A DNA stretch of 64,000 nucleotides from assembly GCA_949752745.1 (NCBI GenBank), contig OX457025.1, positions 48,907,601 to 48,971,600 on the forward strand, read 5' to 3'. The DNA comes from Protula sp. h YS-2021 (Eukaryota; Annelida; Polychaeta; Sabellida; Serpulidae). Below the pieces are notes generated by a model that saw only the letters and a program-made list of their open reading frames with translations, searched no databases and had not been told where the DNA came from. Of the stretch, positions 1,461 through 61,314 are shown in pieces. A program made the position numbers and the translations under genes. Every line of letters begins with the position of its first letter. Position 1 is the stretch's first letter.

Positions 1461-1474
1461 AAACAACGTGAATC

Positions 1475-2957: not shown

Positions 2958-3718
2958 TATTGTAGATGCATTAAAAAGAAGTGATTGAGATTTCGTAGTC
3001 AAAGACTCTGTCTATAGACATTATTAACAATTGCTCTATGAAACTTTTTTTAAAATTTGTAGTTAAGTGACATATTTATCCAATAATGTATATCTTTGCA
3101 CACGATTACTAGTATAACTCTAGTGTCATTTCATTCTAATAAGGTCCCTAGCGCGGTTTTAATTCACCCGTAAACCATTCAAGTAGAGGGTCCCTGGCGA
3201 GGTGTTAATTGATCCGTAAACCTTTTCATTTTCCTATTTTTTCATTCTTAAGAAAGGCTCCCTGGCGAGATGTTAACTCACCCGTATATTATATGTCATA
3301 TATTAGTGATAGACAAGTGTTTCTTTTGTTTAGAATTATATATATTTATACATTGATGTAATTTTTGTGTAGTTTTGTATTATATAAATTTGAGATTATT
3401 ATGAGAAAAATAAAAAGTTGAAAAACATCATATGTATTGTTCTTATTTTATTGAATATCACAAATATTTACACTTATTGAGAACTACAATTATCATAAAC
3501 ACCAAATTAAAATATTGACATTTACTGAGATTAAAAACAAAAATATTTCAGATACATATTATGTTAATACATGTAGCATATTCGCAGAGTCACAAGAACT
3601 TAAATTGATATAGTATCATACATGTTGTGAAAACTGACATAACATTGATCCAATCCAATCACTTTCACATCACCATGGTTTGATTATGTCAGTTCATTTA
3701 AACCTTTCATAGTCTCTA
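2958..3718. other. Convergent intergenic region with paired poly(A) signals
   Basis: This lies between the plus-strand capsid block and the minus-strand block. It has an AATAAA on the plus strand at 3409-3414 and its mirror (TTTATT) at 3447-3452, suitable for 3' ends of the two convergent gene sets. Three short direct repeats lie at 3143-3285. No coding sequence is recognisable. Confidence 0.5.
3143..3285. repeat. Three direct repeats of about 30-34 bp
   Basis: Copies lie at about 3143-3176, 3189-3222 and 3256-3285. They share the pattern GGTCCCTGGCGAGGTGTTAA, then TnACCCGTA(AACC). Spacing is irregular, 46 and about 67 bp start to start. They sit exactly between the convergent transcription units of Polinton copy 1. 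Function unknown. Confidence 0.6.
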
Positions 3719-4093
3719 TCACGTTATACATGTTGGGCGTAAAGTCAATTTTCTTTGAACCACGTATCGAATGTACATGTCCATTTGGTTCAAAGTTTCA
3801 AGTTCTTGCCAAGCCTGAAAAACTTGGCTCCAATCTTCCGCACTGAGGATGATGAAATCATAGCTGGTAAGCTCCTCATACTGTTGAAACTGCACACAAC
3901 GTTCACTGTCTCGTTCAATGACTTTCACACTAAGTTCTCCTGAGACTTGTATATGAAATCCTGGTATTGGTAAAGATTCAAAATAACCCTTCACCAAGGC
4001 TTGATCATCAGGAGATAAGATGATGTAAGTTCCACAATAACAAATGGTCAGTTCACCCAAGTGATCCATAGATAGTTTCACGCTTGAATTCAT
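3719..4093 (-). CDS. Hypothetical Polinton protein, 124 aa
   Basis: An open minus-strand frame from an ATG at 4093, in the block between polymerase B and the protease where Polintons carry variable genes. It is acidic-to-neutral with no membrane segment or signal peptide visible. Features are an ELTICYCGTYIILSPDDQAL stretch and a later SYDFIILSAEDW stretch. It is the longest undamaged frame in this copy, yet the neighbouring genes are broken, so expression is doubtful. I do not recognise a family. The start codon lies about 100 bp downstream of the PC4-like gene's end, as if both were in one minus-strand cluster. Confidence 0.4.
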   Translation of the reverse strand: MNSSVKLSMDHLGELTICYCGTYIILSPDDQALVKGYFESLPIPGFHIQVSGELSVKVIERDSERCVQFQQYEELTSYDFIILSAEDWSQVFQAWQELETLNQMDMYIRYVVQRKLTLRPTCIT

Positions 4094-4700
4094 GATGATA
4101 AATGAGTTCTACAGAACCATCTTGTGACTGTACCTGCATTTATAAATATCAGTCTGCTGATACACGAGATTCACTGACGTCATTTGCTTCTTCAGCATTT
4201 GTCAATCTTTCAATGACCATAAAATTCCCTTCTCGGTAGGATATAGCCTCCCAGATGCATGATCCGTAATATATTCGGAAATGTTAATCATCACTTGCTG
4301 TTGATATTTCACCAATTTAATATATGTTTCTCCATTAATGGGTATCATAATCGGTAAATCATCTACACTCATCTTCTTCATGGACTTTGTCGTGGTGGCA
4401 GCTTTACGCTCAGGTTCTCGCTTGACTTTAGGCTCTACCTTAAACTCTATTTTTCGCTTTTAACATGGTAGCTGGTAGCTGGTAACTCATCTCTTTTTAT
4501 CTTTCTAAGCTGTGGTCGCCTTTGAAGCTGTTGTATTGGCAGTGACTTCAACTAACAGTTTACCATGGGCAGTGCCTTAGACTTTGCTGTAGCTATTGTC
4601 TCAGGCTTTGCTATAGGCTTTTCTGTTGGCATTGTCTCAGACTTCTGTAGACATCGTCGTGGATGGCACTGTTGTTCATTCACTGCAGACATGCTCACTC
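4094..4700 (-). pseudogene. PC4/p15-like single-stranded-DNA-binding domain gene, decayed
   Basis: The minus-strand frame around 4209-4440 reads INGETYIKLVKYQQQ, then INISEYITDHASG, then YPTEKGILWSLKDW-like residues. The spacing (K-Y-x-V-x-I-R/S-E-Y, G, P-x-x-K-G-I, L/W) is that of the PC4 (transcriptional coactivator p15) domain, which binds single-stranded DNA. Upstream, to about 4700, the same strand holds Thr/Ser/Pro/Lys-rich low-complexity sequence with several stops, probably the N-terminal tail. A PC4-like protein next to a protein-primed polymerase would make sense as a replication or late-transcription factor; that is inference. A TGA near 4209 interrupts the domain at a position where family members often have Trp. 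Confidence 0.45.
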
Positions 4701-4758
4701 TTCAATATTTTGATACAGAATGATTGTTATGCCTGAGAGCGGGCGCCTTTTATGCTCT

Positions 4759-6602
4759 CTAAGTTGTGTAATGCCCACGAGCTAACGTGGTGTAACCATC
4801 ATCCAATACGTAGCACTTATCATCATATGATAATAAACCAGTCTTCCGAATCTTCTCTGAAAAGATTTGATGTTTATGACTTCGAATGATGTTTCCCATA
4901 ACATATGATTCCCCTTCCCTGAATAAACTATTGCCGTATTGAGCATGTGTTATTCGCCTCTGACAGGCGCGTGTAATGCACTTAGAAGTATGTTTCTCTG
5001 GCCAACCATACAGCAAACTCTACATCTTCGGCCGAAGTCCTACAAACTCCTCAATGGATACTCCAACAGTTTCATGTTTCATTTTCCTCAACACTTTCTT
5101 GTTTACAGTAGAATGTGAAAATGATCCTTTGGATAATCGCTTGTATCAAAAAGATGTCTGGTCGGTATATCATAACACAAACTGTCTGTGTCACTGAACA
5201 ATAATTTTGTCTCTGGATACTTCTTCGTGTAATGGTAATCATACATAGAGGTTTTGCTGAGATCTAGAATAGTAAACCCAATCTGAATGGGTTTGTTCAG
5301 CAACAGATCTGATTTGAGGCAGTGTACTGCTGTCAAGTCTTCACTGAAAATGTGGAATTTGTAAAATGCAGGCTTGGCTACCCCCTATCTGAAACGTTTT
5401 TCATTGTGAACCAATTCCACATTGATTCGTTTCCTCACAAATATAGCACTATTAATCAATTTGTGAAAGTCTTTTTCAAACGATTTTTGCCACATTTCTC
5501 TTCTCTGTGTTAACATCTATATGTGTAGGTAAGATTTGAATCTGATGGAAAATAACGGTTCGATGTACCTTTGCCACTTTCAATGAAAGAGATATATATT
5601 GCTGCAAATTTTGATAATGTACTACATATGTTTCCTTATCACTGAGATTTGGAATCAACATTTCCGTAGGTTTACATTTCAATCCCAACTGTGTTCTCAG
5701 GTTCTGACTATATTCAGCCAATTCACTGATTCGAAGTTTTCTTCTCAGGAGCCACTGGAAAGGCACTTTGCTGATCATGAATTTCATCCGGATATGTGAG
5801 ATCTACCTCTAAAATATAAGCTGTTTCAGCATCAGCACTCACTTTCATGTAGTCCAGATATTTTGAATCTTGAACCTATGCAAATCCATATTCTTGCAAA
5901 CTCTGCGACATATTTCAACCACAGAGATTGTTGGTATCAAAGTACATGATGTAGTTTGTTGACTTGGTCACATAGTCTGGAAGGTAGGGGCTGTTAGCTT
6001 TTGCATACTTGTATGTAATCACTGAAATAACTCGTCGCAGACCTTGCTCTATCATTTGATACATGTCAGTATCACCTATCAATTCCAATTGAAAATTAGT
6101 ATGTTTCAGCATAGCGTCCCATGTCAAACCTGGTGCTGTACATTAGTGAGTAGGATCCAGTTCATATGTGTCAAGACATATATTTCTAAAATTTTCAAAC
6201 ACATCTGCCAACAGCAGCACATCTGTTTTTAGACAGAGGTTAAGATACACTCCAAAGTTATTGCAGTGGAATACATTCCAGATTTGTTGTGCATGAGCAT
6301 AATCCTCGTCACTAATTCCTTCTTCAGACAATTGACTATAAACGTCTTCTTGTGATAGAAACTTGGTTTTTGCAAACTTGGCGGGTTCATCAACATAGTC
6401 ATAGCGATATACTCCTTTTCTCAAAAGTAAATCTTGCTGCTGATTGTCATGCATATGAGCAGTCATATTCTGAAGCTTCTTTTTGCTCTCAGCCGCTAAG
6501 TTGGGTGCCAATTTTTGTAAGGATGCTCCAGTGAATTGATAAGATTCGATGAATTTCAGATTACTTATGGCAATTGCAATGTACTTCGTGGGTTCATCCC
6601 AT
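4759..6602 (-). pseudogene. Protein-primed DNA polymerase B (Polinton), C-terminal part
   Basis: On the minus strand from about 6602 downward: LLRKGVYRYDYVD, EEGISDEDYAHAQQIW, LKTDVLLLADVF, KYAKANSPYL, motif A as YFDTNNLCG (Asp kept, usual Tyr is Cys), GY-type EVDLTYPDEIHD at about 5780-5840, YVVHYQNLQQYI, INSAIF-type residues, PIQIGFTILDLSKTSMYDYHY, and motif C SDTDSLCY (DTD kept). FVGLRPKMYSLLYG and a C-terminal HKHQIF...YVLDDG follow. This is the Polinton polB palm and thumb. The exonuclease/TP-linked N-terminal half is missing: homology stops near 6602 just before unrelated sequence. At least four frame breaks make it a pseudogene. In an intact element it would replicate the linear genome from a terminal protein. 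Confidence 0.85.
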
Positions 6603-6834: not shown

Positions 6835-9800
6835 TATGGGGTGTGACGGAACGCCATTCCCACGGTTCGGTTCGGCTCACTACACTTCAGTAATTTGGTT
6901 CGGTTCGGGTTTTTTTCGGTACGTTTTTGCAAAACTTAAAATTTTGCCGAAATCGTATAAGAGTTGTATTTAGCTAAATATTTATCGCATAACAGCCAAT
7001 AATGCTATGGTATTTGAACAAAAACACCATTTATAATATTTATAACGCTCAAATAGATAAATCAGAGACTATTTAAACAATTATTTAAATAACGTCTCAC
7101 TCCCTTAATAATTATTCGGCGACAAAGCACCTAAAACAGGCCTCCTCAAACGAGGAGACATAATAGTGATTTTGTTAATCATAAGTTTATTTTGCTATTC
7201 GTAACTCGGTGCTCATTTTTTAATAACAAATGTCCCTGAATTCTTATCAAATATTTAAAAATCACAGAAACTACAATTAAGCATAAATATCTGAAATAAC
7301 AAAATCAACATACATATTATTTCACATCAAAGGAGTTAAATTAAGTGAAAGTGTATCCTATAACAATAATTACAGCTTTGTCCTAACTTAAGTTTAAATG
7401 TATCACAAAGTTGTAATTACAGTTTTATTCTGTAAAGTTTGGAACATTTACACAATTTCTTTAATCATAACACCATAAACAAAACGCCTTCACACATATT
7501 ATAAGAAACATTAAATCCTGAATTACACTTATTAAACGAATCGTTACTGCCGCTAAAGGAACAGTTACTATTAAAATATCAAGTAATAACTTCTCAAAAT
7601 TTACTTTAATAAGAGCAACATGTCAACATGTTGATGTTTTATAGTTGAGCGTGAATCAGTAAGAATATCACCTGCTGTGCTAAAAACCCTTTCCAATGGA
7701 ACATTTGTTAGCGAATAATGCTACCATAGACAATATCGGAAATTTCACTTGATTTTTCTTCCACCAATCGAGAGGATTTTTATTCACTGTAATAGCATAG
7801 ATTGCTTTGTAGTCATTAATTTCTTCTTCAGCCAAGATTTTGGTTGGGAAGTATCCGTTGAAAGACTGAAGCAGTCTTGACCAAAAAATGGCGCAAGCGT
7901 ACTTTTCTTTTTAAGAGGTGGCGATTCTCTCTGCAAAGTACCCGCGACACTTCCCTCTTCTTCAGTATATTGCATCCTAGGCAGTGACTCCGTAGATTCT
8001 ATCACACTATGCAGTTGTGCGCTGTGCATGTCAGTTGCCCTTTGGACTATTTTGATGTAAATTATTAAATTTTGACGCTGTGTTAGGAATGGTGTAGCTT
8101 TAAATCTTGGGTCCAGCAAAGTGGCAATGGATAATAATTTCTGAATCTCTTAAGAGGTATATCTTTCTGCAAGGTCTTTTGCCATCACCTGTTTTACCTC
8201 CTTTACAACTTGACTGTCATCGTCTTTAATTTTGAAATTTTCCTTCATGTTGTGAAGCATAGGTGCTATTATTGGCAAAGTTTGAAGTTTCTCATCACAA
8301 ATTGCCAGTGTCGCAAGTTTAAAAGGTTTCAAGATTTCTTGAAGATGCTTGAGATCAGAAAGCTCTACTTCAGATAGTAAAGAGAAGTCACTTATGTTCT
8401 TCTTCACTTCTTTCGTTGTAAGTAATGCAAATATTGCTGCTTGCTGCTTAAGATGTCGGTAAATCATATCATAGGACGAATTCCATCGCGTTTTAATGTC
8501 TATCTTAAGGCGATGTTGTGAAAGTGCAAACAGCGCTTGCTTACTTTTTAACTGTGTCAATGCAATCTATAAAACAATGTAACTATTCTGCGCATTTTGG
8601 CTCAGCTTTTTCATACTTCCGATGTGTACATGGCTTTACTGCAAGCTTAATTCAAAGTATGGCTAAAACAGGGTAGGTGACGATCTAAACCAGCCTCTCT
8701 GGCAGCTGTTTTCATATTAGCTCGATTATCCGTTACCACAGTTTGTTTGTTAGGTCCCACTCAACCAGTGAATCTTTTGTCTGTGTGTATCAAGAACTCG
8801 TGTCTGTAGTGTGAAGTGTTTAACATTCCAATTGGGATCAACGAAATGCGACGTTATTGTGACGTATCCTTGTGAAGATCTGCTCGTTCACCCATCTGTT
8901 ATCAGTGACACATCGTTAGCAAATTTATAGTTGTAATTCACTAGTTTTGAGACATCTACGTACAACTTCGGTAGCTCAGATTTTGTAAATAAAGCACGGT
9001 TAGGAATCTGGTCTCTCGGTTCTAGCTCACGAATAAGTGCCTGAAATCCTTCATTTTCATTCACAGAGAAAGATCTGAAAAAACACATTTCTAATGAAAT
9101 AATTTGTTTGCAAAAACGAAAGAGAAGCAATCAAGCTAATTTTAGTAAGGAATTGTTTTGAAATAAGTATTTTTTAGGATGCGGAAGTTGCTTAGCAGGA
9201 TACTTTGGTATGAATATATTATTACCTAAGATCTTTGATGATGAATCGTGTAATGGCGTGATACGTATCTCGATGTACCAACTGTAACTGTTTTGTTTTC
9301 TTTTGATATGAGAAATTAGAGTATTGCCTTAGAGTACGAAATGTGTCGCCTACAATAATTGCACATGGCATGGGTTTTATCCTTCGTTAATTTGTAATGA
9401 TTCCAGCAGCCGCCGTGAAGTTGGACGGGTGAGCTGTGAAGTCGTTTTCTTCCATTTTCTCGAATGTTAAGGTGGTTTATCCGAAATGTGAGTGACGTTG
9501 TTAAACAGGATAACAACAATATACAATAGTATTAATGCAAGTTATAAAGTCAAATTCCAATTCATTCAGTTATACGAATCGTAATTAATTTATTGTTTGT
9601 ACAATAGTTACCAGTAAAAATTTTAAAAAGTAACGAACAACTCGATTAAATGCATTTCTCAAATACACCAAATTTCTCCATATATCGATAGTCAGTCAGC
9701 CGGGTGTCTGTCGCTGTCTCTCGTGGTCGCTGACCGATGGTCTTTAACTTGCCATAGACACTACTCGGCCTATCACGTCTATGTCAATCCCTTCACTGGT

Positions 9801-29300: not shown

Positions 29301-32300
29301 GATTAGACTAGCCTGGCATAGTCGGCTGGTCTAAAAAACTGTGTAAAGCTTGGTGTAAAGCTTCATAAAGCATTAGTTTAGGTTATCATACGTTTTTCTG
29401 CTTCAAGACGTTTTCGCCCTAAATCCATTTGGGGATCTTATGACGGGGGTAAAGCTTAAATTTAGGTTATCATAGTTTTTTTTTTTTTTTTTTGCTCTGG
29501 GGACGTTTTGGTCCTAATTTGGGAACTGCATGGTTATTATGGTCAGGGATGTTTTGTCCTGGATTTTTCGACAAATTTGGCTTTGGGACGTATTCGCCGT
29601 AAGTTCATTTGAGGTTTTTATGGCCGAGGACGTTTTGTCCTGGATTCCATTGCAAATTTTGCTTCGGCAAAATTTAGGGCAAAACATAGACAACTTTAGG
29701 GCTGGTATGATTTACATCAGTTGATTTACATCATGATTTAAATCGTGATTTAAATCAACGTAAAAAAATCACGATTTTTGATTTTTTTAATTTTTGGATT
29801 TTTTTTTCTTTTTAAAATGTGTGTCATTCAGACTGTGCTCACTGAAGGCAATTGGAGACGCCTTTGTTTAAACAAGGTTTTTCGTATGGTACGCTTATTA
29901 GTGCACATGAGCCTCCGAGGTGGGGAGAAGGCGCTTAGTTAGGGGCAGCAACTAAAAACCTTTTTTGGACAATCGGATCGCCAAAAAAGGCTTATTTTCT
30001 CAAGAGAGGTCTACCTAGAGAACAATCGTACAAAATCGGAAAGGAATCCAGTCAAGAATGTGGGAGAAGAAGCATTTTAAGCAAAAGTTTACACACGTGC
30101 ATACGCGCACACAGACGACAGATGTCCCTCTATTGATGTGATAAGACCAGCCCGACGAGGGATAATGTTTTAGTTAAGTAAGGGAAGGTTCCAAAACTGG
30201 GGATTGAGAATGTGGGGTGAGCTAGTACCAGCTGTAAAACAGGGATGTTTCCATCCCAGTCAAACGGGGAAAAACAGAAATGACTTTCAACCCACAATGC
30301 AAAGTATTGACGATATCACCTAGATGGATTATGAAAAGCATCTCACAGATAGCTCCACTTATGGGCAAAAATTACTCTCTTAAAATGTTAATTCTGTTGC
30401 TGGAGGGTGGGGCTATGGTTTATGCGGAATTGTTGAGGTGCAAAAAAAAAAACGTAGGCATCAGAGATGCATAGCCCTCAGCCAGCCGGAAGATTCGAAA
30501 CAAGGAAAATAGTAGGTTTGAGGCCGGTCACAGGCTCATTTTAATCTTTAGCACCGAAAAGAAAAAAAGGGTGGCAGTGCTTTAAGATGAAATTTAAAAG
30601 TCCAGCTGAGCCACTGTTCTTGGTTCGATATGACTCATTAACAATAGGGATCTTCACTGCTCTATACAGTAGCTATATTCGAAATATTTTAGTAATTGGT
30701 AAAGAATTGTAGGCTAGAGAGTGTTCACAAGCCACATGTTAAGCCAACCTGATAATGGTACAAATAAAAAATTTCCAAGTCCAGCTGAGCCCAATGTTCT
30801 TGGTCCGATATGACTCATTAACAATAGGGATCCTTACTGCTCCATACAGTAGCTATGTCCGAAATATCTTAGTAATTGGTAAAGAATTGTAGGCTAGAGA
30901 GTGTTCACAAGCCACATGTTAAGCAAACTTGATAATGGTACAAATAAAAAATTTCCAAGTCCAGCTGAGCCCACTGTTCTTGGTCGGATACGAATCATTA
31001 ACAATAGGGATCTTTATTAGTCTATATACTAGCTATATCTAAAATATCTTACTAATTGATAAAGAATTGTAGGCTAGCGAGTGTTCACAAGCCACATGTC
31101 ATAAAACCTGATATGGGTAGAAATGTGCAAATTTCAAAGTCCAGCTGAGCCACTGTCCTTGGTCATATATGGCTCATATACAATAGGGATCTTCATTGCT
31201 CCATACAGTAGCTATATTCGAAATATATTAGTAATTGGTGAAGAATTGTAGGCTAGAGAGTGTTCACAAGCCACATGTTAAGCAAACTTGATAATGGTAC
31301 AAATAAAAAATTTCCAAGTCCAGCTGAGCGGTTGTCCTTAGCCGGATATGGCTCATAAACAATAGGGATCTTTATTAGTCTATATACTAGCTATATCTAA
31401 AATATCTTACTAATTGGTAAAGAATTGTAGGCTAGCGAGTGTTCACAAGCCACATGTCATAAAACCTGATATGGGTAGAAATGTGCAAATTTCAAAGTCC
31501 AGCTGAGCCACTGTTCTTGGTCGTATATGGCTCATATACAATAGGGATCTTTATTGGTCCATAAAGTAGCTATATTCGAAATATCTTAGTAATTGGTAAA
31601 GAACTGTAGGCTAGAGAGTGTTCACAAGCCACATGTTAAGCAAACTTGATAATGGTACAAATAAGAAAATTTCCACGTCCAGCTGAGCCACTGTCCTTGG
31701 TCGGATATGGCTCAAAAACAATAGGGATCTTCAGTGGTCCATATACAAGCTATATCTAAAATATCTAAGCGATTGGGAAAAAATTGTAGGCTAGAGCGTG
31801 TTCACAAGGTAAGTGTTAACGGACGGACGGACGGTCCACCTAAGACGAATTTCCACCTAAGACGAACTTAGATGCCACTTAAGATCCAATTTCTCGCACG
31901 GACGGACGGACGGACGGACACGGCCATAGCAATAGCCTTCAGCCAATATTGGCTGAGGGCTAAAAATGAGTTCCCCCAGCACACCGCCCACACAATGCCG
32001 GTGACCGACCGACAACATATCCTCGGTAACAGATACCGAAAGTTATCTTAAGTTGTAACCTCAACTGTAAAGGCACAAGCCTGGGCTGTTCTGCTCACCT
32101 TTGAGGACATGTCCGGGTACGCCCAGCTGAAGAGTATGATGACGAATAGCTGATGGAACATCGAAGCAAACATGAATACCACAAAAATCTTCTCATGGAC
32201 AGCTGCAAATAATGAGACACAACCAGTCAAAACTAAAAAAAAAAAAACAGGCGAAAACATATTTATGTTTCACTTTCAAATGGGATTAGAAAGCTATACA

Positions 32301-47990: not shown

Positions 47991-48031
47991 GCCGGTAGTA
48001 GTGGCGTGGGGACCTGTGCTCCCTCTCTGGC

Positions 48032-48409
48032 TCCTATTGTTCTCGAATGACGTCATAAATAGGTCAGCCAATGAGAGAGGGCTCCTAGTTGTACTCCTAT
48101 TGTTCTCGAATGACGTCATAAGAAGGTCAGCCAATAAGAGAGGGCTCCCTCTCTGGCTCCTATTGTTCTCGAATGACGTCATAAGTAGGTCAGCCAATGA
48201 GAGAGGGCTCCTAGTTGGGCTCCTATTGTTCTCGAATGACGTAATAAGTAGGTCAGCCAATGAGAGAGGGCTCCTAGTTGGGCTCCTATTGTTCGCGAAT
48301 GACGTCATAAATAGGTCAGCCAATGAGAGAGGGCTCCTAGTTGTGCTCCTATTGTTCTCGAATGACGTCATAAGTAGGTTAGTCAATCAGAGACAAGCAT
48401 GATGTCATA
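48032..48409 (+). promoter_or_regulatory. Left terminal array, six 63-bp units with CRE and CCAAT
   Basis: TGACGTCA (one unit TGACGTAA) occurs at 48048, 48111, 48174, 48237, 48300 and 48363, exactly 63 bp apart. Each is followed about 20 bp later by GTCAGCCAATGAG (a CCAAT box; GTTAGTCAATCAG in the last unit). Two further GGGTGACGTCAT sites follow near 48436 and 48508 next to TCCAATCA. CREs bind CREB/ATF factors and CCAAT boxes NF-Y, so this looks like an enhancer/promoter array in the terminal repeat. Confidence 0.7.
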
Positions 48410-48624
48410 AATATGTCGTCCAATCATAGAGGAGGGTGACGTCATGCTGAAGGCCATTCCCATTTCTATTCCTAATGTTCTATGTAGGTCATCCAATCAT
48501 AGAGGAGGGTGACGTCATTGTGCTATGTAGGTTGTCCAATCAGAGACACATCCGTTATGCAAACAAAGCGTTAGTGTATGGGAATTGAGAAACGTTAAAG
48601 ACAAGTTATGACACGTTCTACTGA

Positions 48625-48912
48625 CGTGAGCATTTATTTGCATATGAATTGGCTTATTTTGATACTGTGCGCTTGTGTCATGCTCTCGACAAACTGAACA
48701 AGGTTATGGACTGGAACTTCCAAACCACATCGGAGATCAAACAAACGGAGCTCTACAAAACAGTGGTGGACCCAAACTTCGTCTTACAGTGTGCAGGCGT
48801 GGAAGGGGAAGACACTACAAAGGCCATCAACAAGATAAAGGAATACGAGAACATGAAGATGTTTAAAGTGGTGGAAGCCTACAACGGACTATTTCAATAT
48901 TTGGAACTTTAA
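48625..48912 (+). CDS. Unknown short ORF of the Polinton terminal repeat (left copy)
   Basis: Open from 48625 to a TAA at 48910-48912, with no ATG at its start; recognisable sequence begins LAYFDTVRLCHALDK. It may be the last exon of a spliced gene or use a non-ATG start. It is soluble and charged, with a TTKAINKIKEYENMKMFKV helix-like stretch and the C-terminus FQYLEL. AATAAA follows at 49039-49044. The inverted copy at 57747-58034 keeps the frame with only a few residue differences, suggesting coding. I do not recognise a family. Confidence 0.5.
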   Translation, partial: REHLFAYELAYFDTVRLCHALDKLNKVMDWNFQTTSEIKQTELYKTVVDPNFVLQCAGVEGEDTTKAINKIKEYENMKMFKVVEAYNGLFQYLEL

Positions 48913-49149
48913 GATTTTAAGAAACTTGTTTATTGATTTCATTGTTTTGTGTGTCATTGAGATGATGGTGAATTTAATGTATCTATCTTGTGTAGCAGCT
49001 CTGTATCGACTTTAATGTAAATTGTATTTATCATATAGAATAAAGAAGTAAAACATACAATGTAACTTTTTTATTTTTATTATATACAAATGCACATCAT
49101 TTACAAACATACAAAAGAGTCATCATAACATATGTGTTATTTAGCTTTT

Positions 49150-49688
49150 TATGAGTTCATGATGTCGGTTTACGGTTGAATTAACACAGCGTTAAGCACC
49201 CAATGACCTTTCTAGGTCACGTGACTGATGACGTCACAACATTTGAATGATGCAACCGTTACAAAATGGCGGGAAAGATGACGTTACCAAATTTAAATAA
49301 TGCGCAGGGATAAAAATGGCGGTAATACTTGTCTGGGCATGTTCAAGGTTATTTTGTTTTGTTTGTTTTATGAGTAAACCAATCAGCGTTGTGTATGCCC
49401 ACGCTAGAACAACCAATCAAAAAGAAGCATACCCAAGCGTTTTTTCAATATAGCTACCCAAATATTGCACAATCAGCGAAAATTTATGAATCATCTCTGA
49501 GCATGTTTCTGCTAGCCAATAAGAAAAATGTATGACGTAATATTAAACCAATCAGTGTGAGGCATACCCACGCTACATAATCACGTGATTTGGCAGCTTA
49601 AAATTGAGATTTTTGTCTATTTGGCATTATTCTAACAACAAATTTTGTGAAATACACATCTAAATAGCTTTTTGGTGGATATAAATAT
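49150..49688 (+). promoter_or_regulatory. Promoter-like block of the terminal repeat (left copy)
   Basis: Dense motifs: GGTCACGTGACTGATGACGTCA (E-box plus CRE) at about 49216-49237, two AAATGGCGG boxes (YY1-like) near 49264 and 49314, several CCAATCA boxes (49379, 49412, 49548), CTAGCCAATAAG, TATGACGTAAT and ATCACGTGAT near 49581. It sits between the unknown ORF and the zinc/PC4 gene and is kept in all three copies of the arm. A conserved short open frame (MEKSGAKRNSSSMD...) starts at 49689. Confidence 0.5.
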
Positions 49689-49850
49689 GGAGAAAAGCGG
49701 AGCTAAACGTAACAGTTCTTCCATGGATATAAATGACAGCAAAAAGGCAAGTAAATTTTGAGCAAGTAAATGTTTTATTTCGTATTTTGTCATATGTAAT
49801 GTACAATAATTTTGCAAATTTTATTTGATCTAAATAATTAACTTGTTAGC

Positions 49851-50816
49851 ATGACCACGAATTCTATATGCATTGCAGAAATGCTGAAGTATGACGCAAG
49901 CACTGATGAAAATAGCAAAAGTGAAGATATATGCCCACGTGACTCTTTACTCAAGATTCTAAACGAAGAAGAAAATAGAGAGAAAGGAAAATGTATGTAC
50001 TGTTTTCAAGAAAAAGTACTTATTCCTACAAAATCATGTTGTGTGTCTTGTGGAAATAATGGTAGAGACTATAAGTTTTGTGGAAAACGCACATGCAACT
50101 GGTGTGGTCATTTTAAAACACTTGTTCCGCTTAAACCATTTTGTGAAGATTGTGGTACACAGGGCAAAGAGTGTGCATACTGCCACCGCCCCATGCCTGA
50201 AAAATTTTATGCTTTATCAAACGTTTGTGTAATGCTTGTGCACGAAAATATGCAAAATTGAATGAGAAAAGAAGGGAAGAAAGAGAACTAAAAAGACAGG
50301 ATAAAACATGGGTAAATCCATTCAAATTTTCTCGCAAAACATTGTGCATAAAGATTAAAAATTTTGTAACCATTGTTTTTAGATGAGTCACGTGACGAAT
50401 ATGATGGACCCATGAAGTCAGTATCACTTGGAATTAGTGACTTACGGTTAGTGGTATTACCAAACTATGACTTTGTAATTACCAATGGATCATCTCGCAA
50501 TATTTGTCTTCCTATACATGTGTATCGGGCACTAGTACAACATTTGGGGGAGATTAGTGAACAATTACAGGATGTTATGAATAAGAAAAATGTCTATTAT
50601 AAATTGCACTTAAGTGAACAGTTTTCAGTAAATGTCAAATCTCCTTACTGGCTCGTAAATATTGGTAAATGGCAATTTGATGAAAATGATAAATGGAAGC
50701 TTCTTGGAGGAATACAGTTGAAACACGGGCAGTGAGCTGCATTAAAGAAAGCTGTTAAGCAAATATATTTACCTGAATTGTATGGTGTTCCATCATTTTA
50801 CCAAAATGTCTGGTGA
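49851..50816 (+). CDS. Zinc-knuckle plus PC4-like protein of the Polinton arm (left copy)
   Basis: The ATG at 49851 opens a Cys-rich domain with C-x2-C pairs (KCMYC, CCVSC, TCNWC, FCEDC, ECAYC). A frame change near 50210 leads to RLCNACARKYAKL. A likely 75-bp intron runs 50313-50387 (donor TGG|GTAAAT, acceptor AG before TCACGTGAC, phase 0). The second part reads LRLVVLPNYDFVITNG, CLPIHVYRALVQHL, KLHLSEQFSVNVKSP then NIGKWQFDENDKW...GGIQLKHGQ, a PC4/p15-like domain. A TGA at 50733-50735 occupies a usual Trp position; the frame then continues AALKKAVKQ to 50816. AATAAA is at 50831. Probably a DNA-binding transcription or replication factor; inference. Confidence 0.55.
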
Positions 50817-51090
50817 CTTTGATATGAAAAAATAAAGTTTCTTTTTGGTTCTCATGGGTGTAGTCATTTAGAAGAAAATTATTTCACTCATATACTCAGT
50901 TAGAAAATAAAGAAAGCTGTAATGTAGCGTGGTGATGAATTTACAGTTCAGTCAGATCATTTCTTTTGTCTTTATTTAGATAAGTGTTGAAAGGCTAATG
51001 CACTTGTGTATATCTTTTATGTAATACATAATAAATATATGAAAACCTAATCTTTTATGTCATTATTTCTCAAGACTTTCACGAATAAAC

Positions 51091-52234
51091 ATGTACTGAT
51101 TGGGAAGAATATTTAAAAACTATTTACTTTGATCCTTCTCACGAGGGTGCTTTCAGTTTACCTAAAAAACTTCATAACATACTGAAGAAAGACGGACGAT
51201 TTCAAGTTGGATATCATAAGATAAAGAACTGGTTACAAAAACAAGATGCATATAGTCTTCAACAACCCACAAGATATAAATTTAGGCGAGACAGAGTCGT
51301 TACTCAGGGAATGGATGATCTGTGGGATATGGATTTAGCTGATGTAAGCAATATATCCAAGTATAATAATGGGATAAAATATCTTCTTTTTATTATTGAT
51401 GTATTTTCAAAACACTTGTGGGTGGTACCTCTGAGAGATCGAACACATGCGTCTGTTATACAAGCACTAACGCATATATTAAATGAAACAACACGGAGAC
51501 CTAAACGAATAAGATCAGACAATGGATCTGAATTTAAAAATAGATGGGTTAAGTCATATTTACAAAAACAAAAGATCAATCACTACACCACAAAGAATGA
51601 AACCAAAGCAAATTTTGCGGAACGTGTCATTCGACATTTAAAACAATGATGTACAGATATTTTTCACAAAAAGAAACTCATACATACAATAACATACTTC
51701 AGGATTTGTTATCTAATTACAATTCTAGCCCGCATTCGACTTTGAAAGGTTTGGCTCCGAAAGACATATCCAAACAAAATGAATCACAGATATGTAAAAG
51801 TATCTATATAGATACAGAAAAAGAAAAGCCAAAGAGAGACAGAAACCTTGTCTTGCAATACAAACCACCACCCTTTAAGTTTAAAGCTGGAGATATGGTT
51901 CGCATATCTCACTTGAAGTATCCATTTCAACGCGACTATCAACAAAAATTGACTGAAGAAGTATTCAAAATTAAGTAAAGATTTAGACGTAGGGGTATCC
52001 CCAAGTATCAACTACAAGATTATGAGGATGATCCAGTAGATGGAAACTTTTACCAAGGTGAACTCCAGAAAGTCATAAAAAGTCCGGATGATCTTTTCAA
52101 AGTTGAAAAGGTTTTGAGAAGGAGAAAACGTAATGGTGAAAGTGAGCTTTTTTGTGAAATGGAGAGGGTGGCCGAAGAAGTTCAACAGCTGGATAAAAGA
52201 GTCAGATATTCAAGATATTAAAAAGAACCTATAG
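51091..52234 (+). pseudogene. Polinton integrase (DDE core plus chromodomain)
   Basis: ATG at 51091; a one-base insertion right after it puts the frame off (the right-arm copy lacks it). Then DWEEYLKTIYFDPSHEG, KNWLQKQDAYSL, DDLWDMDLADVS (catalytic Asp), FIIDVFSKHLWVVPL, RSDNGSEF (second Asp) and KANFAERVIRHLK (Glu). Next, after a frameshift near 51647, come RYFSQKE, LLSNYNSSPHSTLKGLAP and the KFKAGDMVRI segment. A stop lies at 51976, FYQGELQKV continues, and a shift near 52135 leads into a chromodomain-like FFVKWRGWPKKFNSW. Stop at 52232-52234. The retroviral-type integrase would insert the element with 6-bp duplications. Catalytic residues are kept, but the gene is broken four ways. Confidence 0.85.
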
Positions 52235-52277
52235 TCAAACTATTATTCATTTAAGCACAGATCATTAAAGGTAAAAG

Positions 52278-53488
52278 ATGTCAACTTGTCAAATTTGCGG
52301 AAATTCATATACAAGACATCACGTCTTAAAAAGACATGTAACAGCAAAACATCGAATGCCGCCGCCGCAAACAACGCCACCGCCGCCCCAAAGTCAAGAT
52401 TTTCATTTCAAGCATCCATTTATTATGTCTATTGCTGGTCCAACGATGTCGGGAAAATCTACATGGATTAAAAATATGCTTCAAAATGCCGAAGATATGA
52501 TCGCTCCGCCGCCAGCTAAAATCTTTTGGTTTTATAAAAGATGGCAGCCTATGTACAGCGAGTTGCAAGAAACTATTCCCATTATTGAATTTGTGCAAGG
52601 AATACCGTTAGATTTAAGCAACGACGACTTCTTTGATATGCATTACCCCACGGTTTTTGTTTTTGATGATCTTATGAAAAATGTAACAAAGAATAAAGAT
52701 GTTTCAGGGCTGTACACAGAAGGATGCCATCACAGAAATTTATCCGTTATCACGATTTTTCAAAATCTTTACCACCACGGTCGTAAAAATAGAACATAAG
52801 GCTTACAAAACCAATATCTTGTGTTGTTTAAAACACCTCGTGATCAAAGCCAGATATCTGTACTCGCCAGACAAATGTATCCTGGTTATTCTAATATTTT
52901 ATACAAAAGTTCAAGAATGCTACCGAAAAACCATATGGATATCTGATTGTTGATTTAAAACCGGATACAACGGATAAATATCGCCTAAAAACAAATGTAA
53001 TACCAGAAAACAAATCACGTGTTATTAAAAAAGATCCTTTACCTTCAAAGCCTAAACTTTCCAATCCGCATTGTTTAGACTGTGGTCAGGTATACGCTTC
53101 CGCATTCGACTTGCAGGGATGCAGGGACAAAATTACAAGCTGTGAGCCAGACGAGAGCAATATTACTTTTTCTAACTGGATTAAAGAAACAAAGCGTGAA
53201 AATGATAAACAGTGGCAATCACTAATTGAGCAATATAAAGAAAAAGGTCTTACTCAGCATCAAGCAGAAAATAAAGCAGAACAGAAGTTAGATGATCGCA
53301 AAGTGTTTTTTCAAAAGTATAAGCATCTCCTGAGTCATTTGATTCATTTGGAGGAAAGCTGCTTACACCATAAAATTGTCGATTGTATTAAAAAAGATAT
53401 AGCAAATGATATGTCAGTCACAAAATCTATAAATAGAGCACTTCAAAACCGCAGAAAAGAATTTGAAAAGGTATTTGCGGATAAATAA
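52278..53488 (+). pseudogene. Polinton packaging ATPase (FtsK/HerA type) with zinc finger and helical tail
   Basis: ATG at 52278; C2H2 finger CQICGNSYTRHHVLKRHVTAKH, a Pro-rich linker, Walker A GPTMSGKSTW, KIFWFYKRW, Walker B VFVFDDLM, and an HHRNLSVITIFQNLYHHG sensor-like segment. A stop lies at 52797-52799; in the same frame YLVLFKTPRDQ and LARQMYPG follow. A one-base deletion near 52909 shifts to KPYGYLIVDLKPDTTD. The same frame runs on through CLDCGQVYASAFDLQ (half of a second zinc finger) and a helical, Lys/Glu-rich tail to TAA at 53486-53488. The ATPase would pump DNA into the capsid. It is broken by one stop and one frameshift. Confidence 0.85.
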
Positions 53489-53518
53489 TTATTTCCACTA
53501 CAAGACATATCAGTCATA

Positions 53519-53742
53519 ATGGAGACAGCGACAAAGAAGCACTACTTGTTTTTATCTTCAACCGATTCTTTAAATTTTTACCCAAATAATAAGGGAACGG
53601 TGTTTACTGTTGAACTTACAGATACGTTGGTTTTAAAAGGCTCATGAAATATTGCATTACTTGAAATATTTCTACCAAAAAGATTATTCTACCAGAAATA
53701 TTTCACACAAATCACAAAATACAACAATGTCATTTTCTAATC
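53519..53742 (+). pseudogene. Polinton minor capsid protein, N-terminal fragment
   Basis: ATG at 53519: METATKKHYLFLSSTDSLNF then GTVFTVELTDTL, a stop (TGA near 53645) where relatives usually have Trp, then NIALLEIFLPKRLFYQK. This is the N-terminal pattern of the penton-like protein. Coding ends at the inverted-arm junction around 53742-53756. The C-terminal counterpart in another element is at 578-1134. Confidence 0.7.
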
Positions 53743-53755
53743 TTTTTGGTAGGAA

Positions 53756-53917
53756 ATATGCATCTTGTTTTTGTAACCAGTTCTTTATCTTATGATATCC
53801 AACTTGAAATCGTCCGTCTTTCTTCAGTATGTTATGAAGTTTTTTAGGTCCACTGAAAGCACCCTCGTGAGAAGGATCAAAGTAAATAGTTTTTAAATAT
53901 TCTTCCCAATCAGTCAT
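53756..53917 (-). pseudogene. Integrase N-terminus, inverted copy
   Basis: Minus-strand ATG at 53917 (MTDWEEYLKTIYFDPSHEG to QKQDAY) copies 51091-51253 without the extra base after the start. The frame then runs into minor-capsid sequence read backwards. It is only the first 54 or so codons, so not functional. Confidence 0.8.
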
Positions 53918-54191
53918 GTTTATTCGTGAAAGTCTTGAGAAATAATGACATAAAAGATTAGGTTTTCATATATTTATTATGTATTACATAAAAGATATAC
54001 ACAAGTGTGTTAGCCTTTCAACACTTATCTAAACAAAGACAAAAGAAATGATCTGACTGAACTGTAAATTCATCACCACGCTACATTACAGCTTTCTTTA
54101 TTTTCTAACTGAGTATATGAGTGAAATAATTTTCTTCTAAATGACTACATCCATGAGAACCAAAAAGAAATTTTATTTTTTCATATCAAAG

Positions 54192-55152
54192 TCACCAGAC
54201 ATTTTGGTAAAATGATGGAACACCATTCAGGTAAATATATTTGCTTAACAGCTTCCTTTAATGCAGCTCACTGCCCGTGTTTCAACTGTATTCCTCCAAG
54301 AAGCTTCCATTTATCATTTTCATCAAATTGCCATTTACCAATATTTACGAGCCAGTAAGGAGATTTGACATTTACTGAAAACTGTTCACTTAAGTGCAAT
54401 TTATAATAGACATTTTTCTTATTCATAACATCCTGTAATTGTATACTAATCTCCCCCAAATGTTGTACTAGTGCCCGATACACATGTATAGGAAGACAAA
54501 TATTGCGAGATGATCCATTGGTAATTACAAAGTCATAGTTTGGTAATACCACTAACCATAAGTCACTAATTCCAAGTGATACTGACTTCATGGGTCCATC
54601 ATATTCATCACGTGACTTATCTAAAAACACTGGTTACAAAATTTTTAATCTTTATGCACAATGTTTTGCGAGAAAATTTGAATGGATTTACCCATGTTTT
54701 ATCCTGTCTTTTTAGTTCTCTTTCTTTCCTTCTTTTCTCATTCAATTTTGCATGTTTTCGTGCACAAGCATTACACAAACGTTTGATAAAGCATAAAATT
54801 TTTCAGGCATGGGGCGGTGGCAGTATGCACACTCTTTGCCCTGTGTACCACAATCTTCACAAAATGGCTTAAGCGGAACAAGTGTTTTAAAATGACCACA
54901 CCAGTTACATGTGCGTTTTCCACAAAACTTATAGTATCTACCATTATATCCATAAGACACACAACATAATTTTGTAGGAATAAGTACTTTTTCTTGAAAA
55001 CAGTACATACATTTTCCTTTCTCTCTATTTTCTTCTTCGTTTAGAATCTTGAGTAAAGAGTCACGTGGGCATATATCTTCACTTTTGCTATTTTCATCAG
55101 TGCTTTCGTCATACATCAGCATTTCTGCAATGCATATAGAATTCGTGATCAT
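54192..55152 (-). CDS. Zinc-knuckle plus PC4-like protein (right arm, inner copy)
   Basis: Inverted copy of 49851-50816 with the same Cys pairs, the same frame change in the zinc region, the same possible intron (GTAAAT...AG) and the same TGA in the PC4 part (at 54268-54270). Substitutions relative to the left copy are few: one Cys of the CCVSC...CGNN region becomes Tyr (SYGYNGRYY) and EISEQL becomes EISIQL. Keeping both domains open over most of their length after duplication hints at some constraint, or simply a recent duplication. Confidence 0.5.
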
Positions 55153-55304
55153 GCTAACAAGTTAATTATTTAGATCAAATAAAATTTGCAAAATTATTGT
55201 ACATTACAGATGACAAAATACGAAATAAAACATTCACTTGCTCAAAATAATAGAAAACTTGCTTGCCTTTTTGCTGTCATTTATATCCATGGAAGAACTG
55301 TTAC

Positions 55305-55818
55305 GTTTAGCTCCGCTTTTCTCCATTTTTTATATCCACCAAAAGGCTATTTAGATGTGTATTTCACAAAATTTGTCGTTAGAATAATACCAAATAGACA
55401 AAAATTTCAATTTTAAGCTGCCAAATCACGTGATTATTTAGCGTGGGTATGTCTCACACTGATTGGTTTAATATTACGTCATACATTTTTCTTATTGGCT
55501 CGCAGAAACATGCTCAGATATGATTCATAAATTTCCGCTGATTATTCAATATTTGTGTTGCGTTTAGCTCCGCTTTTCTCCATTTTTTATATCCACCAAA
55601 AGGCTATTTAGATGTGTATTTCACAAAATTTGTTGTTAGAATAATGCCAAATGGACAAAAATCTCAATTTTAAGCTGCCAAATCACGTGATTATTTAGCG
55701 TGGGTATGCCTCACACTGATTGGTTTAATATTACGTCATACATTTTTCTTATTGGCTAGCAGAAACATGTTCAGAAACGATTAATAAATTTCCGCTGATT
55801 ATGCAATATTTGTGTAGC
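55305..55818 (-). repeat. 257-bp tandem duplication inside the right arm
   Basis: GTTTAGCTCCGCTTTTCTCC begins at 55305 and again at 55562, followed by near-identical sequence including GATTGGTTTAATATTACGTC. It duplicates half of the promoter-like block. The left arm and outer right copy have it once. Confidence 0.8.
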
Positions 55819-56351
55819 CATATTGAAAAAACGCTTGGGTATGCTTCTTTTTGATTGGTTGTTCTAGCGTGGGCATACACAACGCTGATGGGTTTACTCA
55901 TAAAACAAACAAAACAAAATAACCTTGAACATGTTTTTCCGCCATTTTTATTCCCGCGCATTATTTAAATTTGGTGACGTCATCTTTCCCGCCATTTTGT
56001 AACGGTTGCATCATTCAAATGTTGTGACGTCATCAGTCACGTGACCTAGAAAGGTCATTGGGTGCTTAACGCTGTGTTAATTCAACCGTAAACCGACATC
56101 ATGAACTCATAAAAAGCTAAATAACACATATATTATGATGACTCTTTTGTATGTTTGTAAATAATTTGCATTTGTATATAATAAAAATAAAAAAAGTTAC
56201 ATTGTATGATTTACTTCTTTATTCTATATGATAAATACAATTTACATTAAAGTCAATACAAAGTTGCTACACAAGATAGATACATTAGATTCACAACCAT
56301 CTCAATGACACACGCAAAACATTAAAATCAATAAACAAGTTTCTTAAAATC
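55819..56351 (-). promoter_or_regulatory. Promoter-like block (right arm, inner copy, remainder)
   Basis: It carries the same motifs as 49150-49688 in reverse: CCAAT boxes, AAAATGGCGG-type boxes, GTGACGTCATC and GTCACGTGACC. One GACGTCATCTTTCCC variant has a full CRE-like core where the left arm has GATGACGTTACC. Confidence 0.45.
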
Positions 56352-56808
56352 TTAAAGTTCCAAATATTGAAATAGTCTTTCTTCCCTTCTTTTCTCATTC
56401 AATTTTGCATATTTTCGTGCACAAGCATTACACAAACGTTTGATAAAGCATAAATTTTTCAGGCATGGGGCGGTGGCAGTATGCACACTCTTTGCCCTGT
56501 GTACCACAATCTTCACAAAATGGTTTAAGCGGAACAAGTGTTTTAAAATGACCACACCAGTTGCATGTGCGTTTTCCACAAAATTTATAGTCTCTACCAT
56601 TATTTCCACAAGACACACAACATGATTTTGTAGGAATAAGTACTTTTTCTTGAAAACAGTACATACATTTTCCTTTCTCTCTATTTTCTTCTTCGTTTAG
56701 AATCTTGAGTAAAGAGTCACGTGGGCATATATCTTCACTTTTGCTATTTTCATCAGTGCTTGCGTCATACTTCAGCATTTCTGCAATGCATATAGAATTC
56801 GTGGTCAT
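56352..56808 (-). pseudogene. Zinc-knuckle gene copy fused to the unknown-ORF tail (right arm, junction)
   Basis: The Cys-rich part is copied from 49851-50279. At about 56377 the sequence switches within ...GGGAAGAAAGA|CTATTTCAA to the end of the short unknown ORF, so the product ends ...EKRREERLFQYLEL. One T is missing from a homopolymer near 56453, so one frame ends at MPEKFMLYQTFV while the other carries the fusion. The PC4 part is absent. This marks the boundary between the two arm segments of the right side. Confidence 0.75.
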
Positions 56809-57009
56809 GCTAACAAGTTAATTATTTAGATCAAATAAAATTTGCAAAATTATTGTACATTACATATGACAAAATACGAAATAAAACATTTACTTGCTCA
56901 AAATTTACTTGCCTTTTTGCTGTCATTTATATCCATGGAAGAACTGTTACGTTTAGCTCCGCTTTTCTCCATATTTATATCCACCAAAAAGCTATTTAGA
57001 TGTGTATTT

Positions 57010-57590
57010 CACAAAATTTGTTGTTAGAATAATGCCAAATAGACAAAAATCTCAATTTTAAGCTGCCAAATCACGTGATTATGTAGCGTGGGTATGCCTC
57101 ACACTGATTGGTTTAATATTACGTCATACATTTTTCTTATTGGCTAGCAGAAACATGCTCAGAGATGATTCATAAATTTTCGCTGATTGTGCAATATTTG
57201 GGTAGCTATATTGAAAAAACGCTTGGGTATGCTTCTTTTTGATTGGTTGTTCTAGCGTGGGCATACACAACGCTGATTGGTTTACTCATAAAACAAACAA
57301 AACAAAATAACCTTGAACATGCCCAGACAAGTATTACCGCCATTTTTATCCCTGCGCATTATTTAAATTTGGTAACGTCATCTTTCCCGCCATTTTGTAA
57401 CGGTTGCATCATTCAAATGTTGTGACGTCATCAGTCACGTGACCTAGAAAGGTCATTGGGTGCTTAACGCTGTGTTAATTCAACCGTAAACCGACATCAT
57501 GAACTCATAAAAAGCTAAATAACACATATGTTATGATGACTCTTTTGTATGTTTGTAAATGATGTGCATTTGTATATAATAAAAATAAAA
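57010..57590 (-). promoter_or_regulatory. Promoter-like block (right arm, outer copy)
   Basis: Inverted copy of 49060-49640, closest in sequence to the left arm, with the same CRE, E-box, CCAAT and ATGGCGG boxes in the same order. Confidence 0.5.
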
Positions 57591-57746
57591 AAGTTACATT
57601 GTATGTTTTACTTCTTTATTCTATATGATAAATACAATTTACATTAAAGTCGATACAGAGCTGCTACACAAGATAGATACATTAAATTCACCATCATCTC
57701 AATGACACACAAAACAATGAAATCAATAAACAAGTTTCTTAAAATC

Positions 57747-58034
57747 TTAAAGTTCCAAATATTGAAATAGTCCGTTGTAGGCTTCCACCACTTTAAACAT
57801 CTTCATGTTCTCGTATTCCTTTATCTTGTTGATGGCCTTTGTAGTGTCTTCCCCTTCCACGCCTGCACACTGTAAGACGAAGTTTGGGTCCACCACTGTT
57901 TTGTAGAGCTCCGTTTGTTTGATCTCCGATGTGGTTTGGAAGTTCCAGTCCATAACCTTGTTCAGTTGGTCGAGAGCAAGACACAAGCGCACAGTATCAA
58001 AATAAGCCAATTCATATGCAAATAAATGCTCGCG
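57747..58034 (-). CDS. Unknown short ORF of the terminal repeat (right copy)
   Basis: Inverted copy of 48625-48912: LAYFDTVRLCLALDQLNKV to FQYLEL. It differs from the left copy at two residues (His to Leu, Lys to Gln). Again there is no ATG at the start of the open frame. Family unknown. Confidence 0.5.
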   Translation of the reverse strand, partial: REHLFAYELAYFDTVRLCLALDQLNKVMDWNFQTTSEIKQTELYKTVVDPNFVLQCAGVEGEDTTKAINKIKEYENMKMFKVVEAYNGLFQYLEL

Positions 58035-58225
58035 TCAGTAGAACGTGTCATAACTTGTCTTTAACGTTTCTCAATTCCCATACACTAACGCTTTGTTTGC
58101 ATAACGGATGTGTCTCTGATTGGACAACCTACATAGCACAATGACGTCACCCTCCTCTATGATTGGATGACCTACATAGAACATTAGGAATAGAAATGGG
58201 AATGGCCTTCAGCATGACGTCACCC

Positions 58226-58572
58226 TCCTCTATGATTGGACGACATATTTATGACATCATGCTTGTCTCTGATTGACTAACCTACTTATGACGTCATTCG
58301 AGAACAATAGGAGCCCAACTAGGAGCCCTCTCTCATTGGCTGACCTATTTATGACGTCATTCGCGAACAATAGGAGCCCAACTAGGAGCCCTCTCTCATT
58401 GGCTGACCTACTTATTACGTCATTCGAGAACAATAGGAGCCCAACTAGGAGCCCTCTCTCATTGGCTGACCTACTTATGACGTCATTCGAGAACAATAGG
58501 AGCCAGAGAGGGAGCCCTCTCTTATTGGCTGACCTACTTATGACGTCATTCGAGAAATAGGAGCCAGAGAGG
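58226..58572 (-). promoter_or_regulatory. Right terminal array, five 63-bp units with CRE and CCAAT
   Basis: TGACGTCA (one TTACGTCA) at 58289, 58352, 58415, 58478 and 58541, each with ATTGGCTGACC beside it. One unit fewer than the left array. Both arrays share the same order of unit variants, including the same degenerate CRE in one unit, so the arms diverged by unit loss after duplication. Confidence 0.7.
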
Positions 58573-58603
58573 GAGCACAGGTGCCCACCACACTACTGCC
58601 GGT

Positions 58604-60461: not shown

Positions 60462-61314
60462 TTGCTAAAAAATTTTTATGTCGTCAAAAATTTCACTACA
60501 CCCTTTTTGGGCAAACCTGCAATCACTAAATTGCAACTTGTTAGCATTGCTAGTACAATAACTTCATCCGATTTTAAACAAAATGTCCTGAAAAAGTTCC
60601 AAAAATTATTTTCAGGCTTAGGGAGGATAAAAGATTTCAAGTACAAAATACACATCGAACCGGATGCGCAGCCATTTGCAATAAAGACACCAAGAAGGGC
60701 TGCTCATCCATTGTTGCCCAAGGTTAAAACCGTGTTAGATGATATGGTACAGCAAGGGGTAATTCGAGGTCTCGAACCAAACGAGACTTCATCCTGGTGC
60801 GCTGGGATGGTAGTGGTTCCCAAACCGAAAACGGGAGAAGTACGCATTTGCATCAATTTAACTCAACTAAACAAGTATGTAATACGTCCCCAATATCAAC
60901 TTCCCACATTTGAATCAACATTTGGCATATCGAGTGCATCAGAGGTATTCCGGGAGGTTATACACTATGTTGTGGGACAATAACCACATGTCAATATTCA
61001 AATTGACAACATATTGGTGGACAGCAAAGACATTTCATCTCATACGTAGAAATCTAACAGACTGTGAGCAACGATATGCCCATATTGAAAAAGACGCTTT
61101 GGCCTTGACCTGGGGTTGTGAAAAATTTGTTGAGTGTGTCTTAGACTTATATTTCACGCTAGTCATTGACCATAAGCCGTTGGTGCCTATACTTGCCAAA
61201 AAGAGGCTCGACGAAATACCCCCTAGGATAACTCGGTTCAAATCATGCTCATGCGGTTCAGATTCAATATACAACATTTACCAGGTAAGGAAATGTACAC
61301 TCCGGATACCATGA
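60462..61314 (+). pseudogene. Gypsy reverse transcriptase N-terminus joined to RNase H
   Basis: RT pieces: FKYKIHIEPDAQPFAIKTPRR, LDDMVQQGVIRGLEP, SSWCAGMVVVPKP, VRICINLTQLNKYVIRP. The frame breaks near 60960, and the next recognisable part is RNase H: LTDCEQRYAHIEKDALALTW, FTLVIDHKPLVPIL, KKRLDEIPPRI. The catalytic RT core (the LDL-type and YxDD motifs) is missing between them, a deletion of several hundred bases relative to a full gypsy element. Confidence 0.75.

Follow-up and report, generated by a model that had tools for sequence, protein, structure and literature searches.

The 64,000-nucleotide stretch of DNA from the annelid Protula sp. h YS-2021 analysed in this work (positions 48,907,601 to 48,971,600 of the forward strand of contig OX457025.1, assembly GCA_949752745.1; hereafter, the window) carries a 10.6-kb element, spanning positions 47997-58597, which, judged from its sequence, is an end-duplicated derivative of a Polinton (Maverick). 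The features assigned to the element and to its borders, including its open reading frames (ORFs), are listed below; here and throughout the text, coordinates prefixed L are positions on the left arm.

47991-47996, no strand: left target-site duplication GCCGGT, by sequence reading
47997-48393, + strand: left terminal repeat, with the AGTAGT end motif followed by 5.8 copies of a 63-bp unit
48625-48909, + strand: open frame of 95 amino acids with no known domain; copy in the outer right arm at 57750-58034 (- strand)
49851-50261, + strand: ORF1, 136 amino acids, cysteine-rich and zinc-binding by eye; copies on the - strand at 54742-55152 and, with an altered end, at 56428-56808
50370-50735, + strand: ORF2, no known domain; copy on the - strand at 54268-54633
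51092-52218, + strand: broken RVE-type (Polinton) integrase gene (Pfam rve, 1.6e-14), whose reading frame shifts near 51.6 kb and is interrupted by an in-frame stop at 51976
52278-53485, + strand: broken A32/FtsK-type ATPase gene, with a stop at 52797 and a frame change near 52.9 kb, then a cysteine/charged open frame
53519-53737, + strand: putative start of a Polinton minor capsid (penton) gene, containing one in-frame stop and truncated at the central junction; family assigned by eye
53672-53686, + strand: template of the snap-back insertion
53738-53759, no strand: central junction, consisting of a 15-nucleotide exact reverse complement of 53672-53686, one extra base, and AAATAT leading into reverse-complement L51253
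53756-55561, - strand: inner right arm B (InnerB), inverted L49453-51253, 96.7% identity (blastn), with the integrase start in frame
55556-56376, - strand: inner right arm A (InnerA), inverted L48887-49714, creating a 257-bp tandem duplication at 55299-55815
56376-58563, - strand: outer right arm, inverted L48094-50284, 99.7% identity (6 substitutions, 3 gap positions)
58266-58597, - strand: right terminal repeat, with about 4.8 copies of the 63-bp unit and the ACTACT end
58598-58603, no strand: right target-site duplication GCCGGT, by sequence reading

Reading of both borders confirmed the GCCGGT duplication reported in the initial annotation: the hexamer directly abuts AGTAGTG on the left and CACTACT on the right. 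The chance of such a six-base match at two fixed borders is 2.4e-4 with equal bases, and a comparable value of 4.0e-4 (79 of 200000) was obtained from random pairs within the window. Both the 6-bp target-site duplication and the (AGT)2//(ACT)2 end motif are hallmarks of Polintons/Mavericks. This end motif is the commonest among vertebrate Mavericks, whose target duplications are likewise 6 bp long and whose terminal repeats measure 46-1,447 bp (PMC8097293). The two tips of the element are not identical, as 3 of the 33 outermost bases differ, followed by a 2-bp indel, and the 63-bp array is one unit longer on the left than on the right.

The entire region 53738-58597 consists of inverted left-arm sequence, the only exceptions being a single junction base (53753) and small indels of at most 10 bp. 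Specifically, moving inward from the right tip, the right side is composed of L47997-50284, L48887-49714 and L49453-51253. In this way, 4.86 kb of right arm derive from 3.26 kb of left arm (L47997-51253), two stretches of it, 1.4 kb and 257 bp long, occurring in duplicate. At the junction of L50284 with L48887 the two segments overlap by GA, while at the junction of L49714 with L49453 the overlap is ACA using the InnerA version and zero using the left-arm version. Since the right side is made up of inverted left arm, the genes for the polymerase, the protease and the major capsid protein are truly missing from it, and not merely unrecognised. These data agree with the initial annotation in placing the same end on both sides, given that the terminal repeat and the arm are duplicated and that the integrase gene (INT) lies on the left arm, as well as in regarding the polymerase/protease/major-capsid half as replaced on the right. 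The inverted copy of about 3.3 kb of left arm, also proposed there, is correct as regards the 3.26 kb covered, but the copy is composite and re-copied, and reaches 4.86 kb. The notion of a simple palindrome needs correction: it does not capture the nearly 10-fold contrast in divergence between outer and inner arms, the tips are unequal, and a unique spacer of 2.5 kb (51254-53737) separates the arms and thereby makes the structure an interrupted inverted repeat.

The inner junction, previously placed at about 53756, was located close to that position, at 53738-53759. In this region, the snap-back insertion proper corresponds to 53738-53752, and the switch to L51253 occurs over a shared ATAT. 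An inverted match of at least 15 nucleotides to the preceding 200 bases was found at 11 of 30000 window positions sampled outside a (TA)n tract, one of which lies beside the junction itself. The sequence of the central junction supports its assignment to the copy-back or end-joining kind. Snap-back replication in end joining by DNA polymerase theta (Pol theta) can leave inverted templated insertions, and the element resembles these products in showing an inverted templated insertion together with microhomology (PMC9962433). The same source gives 3-10 nucleotides as the usual size of Pol theta templated insertions, compared to 15 bases in the element, and states that the Pol theta helicase domain suppresses snap-back (PMC9962433); the enzyme for the element junction is putative.

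The coding genes all map to the + strand of the left part and are broken overall, with three in-frame stops and two frame changes. Two further Polinton hallmarks were found among them, namely an RVE-type integrase, in the form of a broken gene, and an A32/FtsK-type ATPase, with a marginal score. In the protein search with the integrase, 71 of 92 candidates were retained at E<=1e-4, and 19 of these were aligned with the window; the nearest relative among the animal-named matches belongs to the pearl oyster Pinctada imbricata (52% identity). Comparison with NCBIfam matched the IS481, IS3 and IS30 models, all below their cut-offs. A search with the integrase alignment recovered 6 distant loci (24-32% identity), and the genome-collection search 15 loci (25-33% identity), every one titled as bacteria. 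In viral contigs no relatives of the integrase, of the ATPase or of a 20-mer from the terminal repeat were found (0 matches for the 20-mer). The ATPase assignment derives from two marginal Pfam matches, to Adeno_IVa2 (4.7e-5; 22.8 bits, cut-off 21) and to Pox_A32 (6e-5; 23.1 bits, cut-off 22.8), and a search of the ATPase piece against PDB gave chance-level matches only, the best with an E value of 0.12.

A Pfam scan of 8 left-part frames detected no polymerase, protease or major capsid domain. Lacking a protein-primed DNA polymerase, a protease and a major capsid gene, the element is therefore a Polinton derivative and not a complete Polinton. ORF1 had no Pfam match at gathering score, and the protein search returned zero homologue candidates for it; no homologue of ORF2 was retrieved by protein search at E<=1e-3. 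In both the left and the inner right copies, ORF1 terminates early at the same place, and an overlapping frame (within 49851-50383 in the left copy) goes on with a cysteine pair. This early ending may be a lesion that predates the duplication, or else the gene may truly stop at this point.

The outer and inner portions of the right arm differ markedly in their distance from the left arm. The left and outer right arms show 6 substitutions over 2187 aligned bases, compared to 60 over 2349 (2.6%) between the left and inner right arms (Fisher P 8e-12); the latter sum combines InnerA for L48889-49458 with InnerB for L49459-51253, leaving out InnerA over the 257-bp unit. The difference between the tips (3/33) has a P value of 1e-4 at the outer rate and of 0.051 at the inner rate, and agrees better with the latter. 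Over the 257 columns of the 257-bp unit, we counted 11 substitutions between Left and InnerA, 12 between Left and InnerB and 12 between InnerA and InnerB, that is, a star (12, 14 and 13, respectively, with six junction-overlap columns kept). These star-like distances date the inversion and the tandem duplication to about the same time.

When ORF1 and ORF2 of the left arm are compared with their inner copies, 4 synonymous and 11 nonsynonymous differences are counted (P 0.028 under omega 0.2, and 0.43 under omega 0.5). Judged from these 15 changes, a small number, the differences look neutral and offer no hint that the lineage was functional. The integrase, ATPase and capsid-start frames contain 3 in-frame stops, where 1.6-3.2 are expected at a per-copy divergence of 1.3-2.6%; as this number is near expectation, the ages of insertion and duplication cannot be told clearly apart. 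In the inner right copy the integrase start is in frame, and in the left one it is not, which suggests that copying probably took place early, with that part still intact. In addition, at a nearly invariant position of the integrase family the family residue is kept in the inner copy and lost in the left, and the inner ORF1 copy is without one cysteine that the left ORF1 retains. As the losses in integrase and in ORF1 fall on opposite copies, both copies changed after separating. All together, the pattern fits an old event followed by a later homogenisation.

The element is a Polinton remnant without its far half, and its right side is an inverted and rearranged copy of its own integrase-side arm. 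We tentatively favour, with a confidence falling a little short of an even chance, the view that this state arose in linear element DNA, either before integration or in its course, when snap-back synthesis joined two left-end fragments, or a single one folding back. In this scheme, a 3' end that had broken or stalled near 53737 would first have folded back onto 53672-53686 and copied some 15 bases; synthesis would then have jumped, through a match of 4 bases, to position 51253 of the integrase-side arm. From there, copying or joining would have run on to the tip and, at roughly the same time, slipped back once (49453 to 49714). The molecule with two integrase-side arms may have been inserted by integrase given in trans or by an intact parent, and the arm copies would have undergone neutral decay from then on. 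Much later, the left arm would have overwritten the outer right arm over about 2.2 kb, from the homology limit L50284 to the 63-bp array, through gene conversion or templated repair ending inside the array, with the older tip left in place. Such a late overwriting would account for a 2.2-kb tract of 99.7% identity that is bordered by greater divergence both at the tip and in the inner arm. This history is inferred from one chromosomal copy, which is compatible with placing the L50284/L48887 junction either in a first phase, the joining around the time of insertion, or in a second, the later overwriting.

Several observations weigh against this reading. The insertion of 15 nucleotides exceeds the 3-10 stated for Pol theta, whose helicase domain is also said to suppress snap-back (PMC9962433). 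The divergence of the inner arm is mildly uneven along its length (P 0.05), and the tips, if initially identical, are slightly more different than the inner-arm rate predicts. The early ORF1 ending, if it were a shared lesion, would mean that the gene was broken before copying, and would fit a post-integration event better. Moreover, chromosomal repair resolved in the right terminal repeat can give the same structure. In that case, a full-length Polinton would have inserted and a later break in its right half would have been mended by snap-back and left-arm copying, the new strand annealing to the original right terminal repeat with retention of the target duplication. We regard this course of events as possible, if somewhat doubtful, and as only a little less probable than the favoured one. 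Host repair alone would suffice for it, the central junction is of the Pol theta kind, the ORF1 lesion is possibly shared between copies, and the tip differences (3/33, together with the unequal 63-bp arrays) would be explained by the right tip being the original one. On the other hand, it requires the switch to 51253, the copying of 3.3 kb and a homologous landing in the terminal repeat; among the duplicated genes there is no certain shared lesion, and the inner integrase start is in frame. The tips alone cannot separate a pre- from a post-integration origin, because normal Polintons carry similar repeats at both tips. That the element integrated as one unit in its present form does not follow from the single outer target duplication, since the same duplication is expected from post-integration repair resolved inside a right terminal repeat. 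Joining before integration is put slightly ahead because the union of two left-end fragments would produce the complete structure at once, while a repair in the chromosome calls for the extra homologous landing in the right terminal repeat.

The near identity of the outer arms (99.7%) up to the homology limit L50284, together with tips that agree with the known integrase end motif, would also be expected if a defective molecule had been amplified and inserted several times as a mobile family, with every round of replication homogenising its 2.2-kb outer arms as terminal repeats. We consider this quite unlikely, since the tips differ more than the outer arms (P 1e-4); the absence of matches to the terminal-repeat 20-mer in viral contigs also speaks against it, but says little on the host genome. 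The stronger proposal, that a Polinton gave rise to a helper-dependent subviral form whose linear genome, end-duplicated with the integrase-side arm on both sides, was replicated and inserted in trans, appears unlikely to us; in that case, the element would be the first fossil, within the chromosome of an animal, of a defective interfering genome from a protein-primed DNA virus. An artefact, in which a hairpin read or a mis-joined contig made the inverted repeat, could produce 2.2 kb of near-identical inverted sequence, and is very unlikely: an assembly hairpin is expected to leave identical arms, and here the arms carry different mutations (60/2349 in the inner arms, with indels, 3/33 at the tips, and different lesions in each copy), and a perfect target duplication lies outside the structure. 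Two other explanations were set aside. Recombination between two diverged viral strains is weakened by the lack of a synonymous excess in ORF1 and ORF2 (4 against 11), although the 15 changes are a small sample. The possibility of two independent Polintons, nested or side by side, was rejected, as one target duplication brackets the whole; no inner pair was noticed at the junctions, where no dedicated search for one was made.

Further observations concern the terminal repeats, the integrase relatives and the rest of the window. The CRE-like motif TGACGTCA occurs 17 times in the 10.6-kb element and 5 times in the remaining 53.4 kb of the window. Of the copies in the element, 13 of 17 fall within the terminal-repeat stretches 48029-48518 and 58142-58565, in which CCAAT motifs are also dense. 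On the basis of these motifs, the element ends may act as promoter or enhancer arrays. One integrase relative (P0037) is filed under a draft genome of Candidatus Thiodiazotropha, a clam symbiont, and probably represents host DNA inside a bacterial bin. A second, distinct Polinton-type relic was recognised at 424-6601. Its integrase fragment (424-564) shows 54% identity to the element integrase (1.1e-12), and frames at 1094-2399 (+) and 3719-6601 (-) resemble by eye a major capsid protein and a protein-primed polymerase, with no Pfam confirmation; a PDB search of one frame of this relic gave no match. Beside the Polinton lies a retroelement fragment with a reverse-transcriptase RNase H domain at 60967-61311 (PF17917, 7.5e-10). 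hAT transposase-like frames are found at 7784-8566, with a weak Pfam match (E 0.04), and a tandem array with periods of 180 bp and 359 bp occupies 30590-31808.

The element shares with described Polintons/Mavericks the 6-bp target duplication, the (AGT)2//(ACT)2 ends, the terminal inverted repeats, the RVE integrase and the A32/FtsK-type ATPase (PMC8097293, PMC4028283). It differs from them in having no polymerase, protease or major capsid gene. Its inverted arms measure 2.2 kb, or 3.3 kb when all of the copied left arm is counted, compared to 46-1,447 bp for the terminal repeats of vertebrate Mavericks (PMC8097293). In addition, its ATPase gene follows the integrase gene on the same strand, whereas vertebrate Mavericks usually have a two-module layout. 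No palindromic or end-duplicated Polinton appears among the matches listed in the open-licence literature, including the available excerpts of PMC8097293, PMC4028283, PMC6431247, PMC9962433 and PMC12368964; the topic of the last one is Maverick density at cod inversion breakpoints, and not an element of this type.

Similar architectures exist outside the family. The symmetric recombinants of adenoviruses are end-duplicated defective genomes of linear protein-primed DNA viruses, and the element resembles them in possessing two copies of one genome end and in having lost the other; the defining trait of such genomes, the same genome end on both sides, was indeed found here. They are, however, free or packaged molecules, while the element is known here from a single chromosomal insertion. 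Defective DNA transposons produced by aborted gap repair and long-inverted-repeat (foldback) elements offer another parallel, in that one arm is replaced by an inverted copy with filler DNA and the ends are kept. For Polintons, unlike the aborted-gap-repair elements, excision is not known to leave a gap behind.

Viral particles of Mavericks have so far been unobserved (PMC8097293). If the element could have arisen only in a replicating linear molecule, this chromosomal copy would represent indirect evidence for a free Polinton stage, and Polintons would generate defective genomes in the way that adenoviruses do. Even in the ordinary reading, the locus would record snap-back junctions and a later homogenisation of the arms in a giant transposon.

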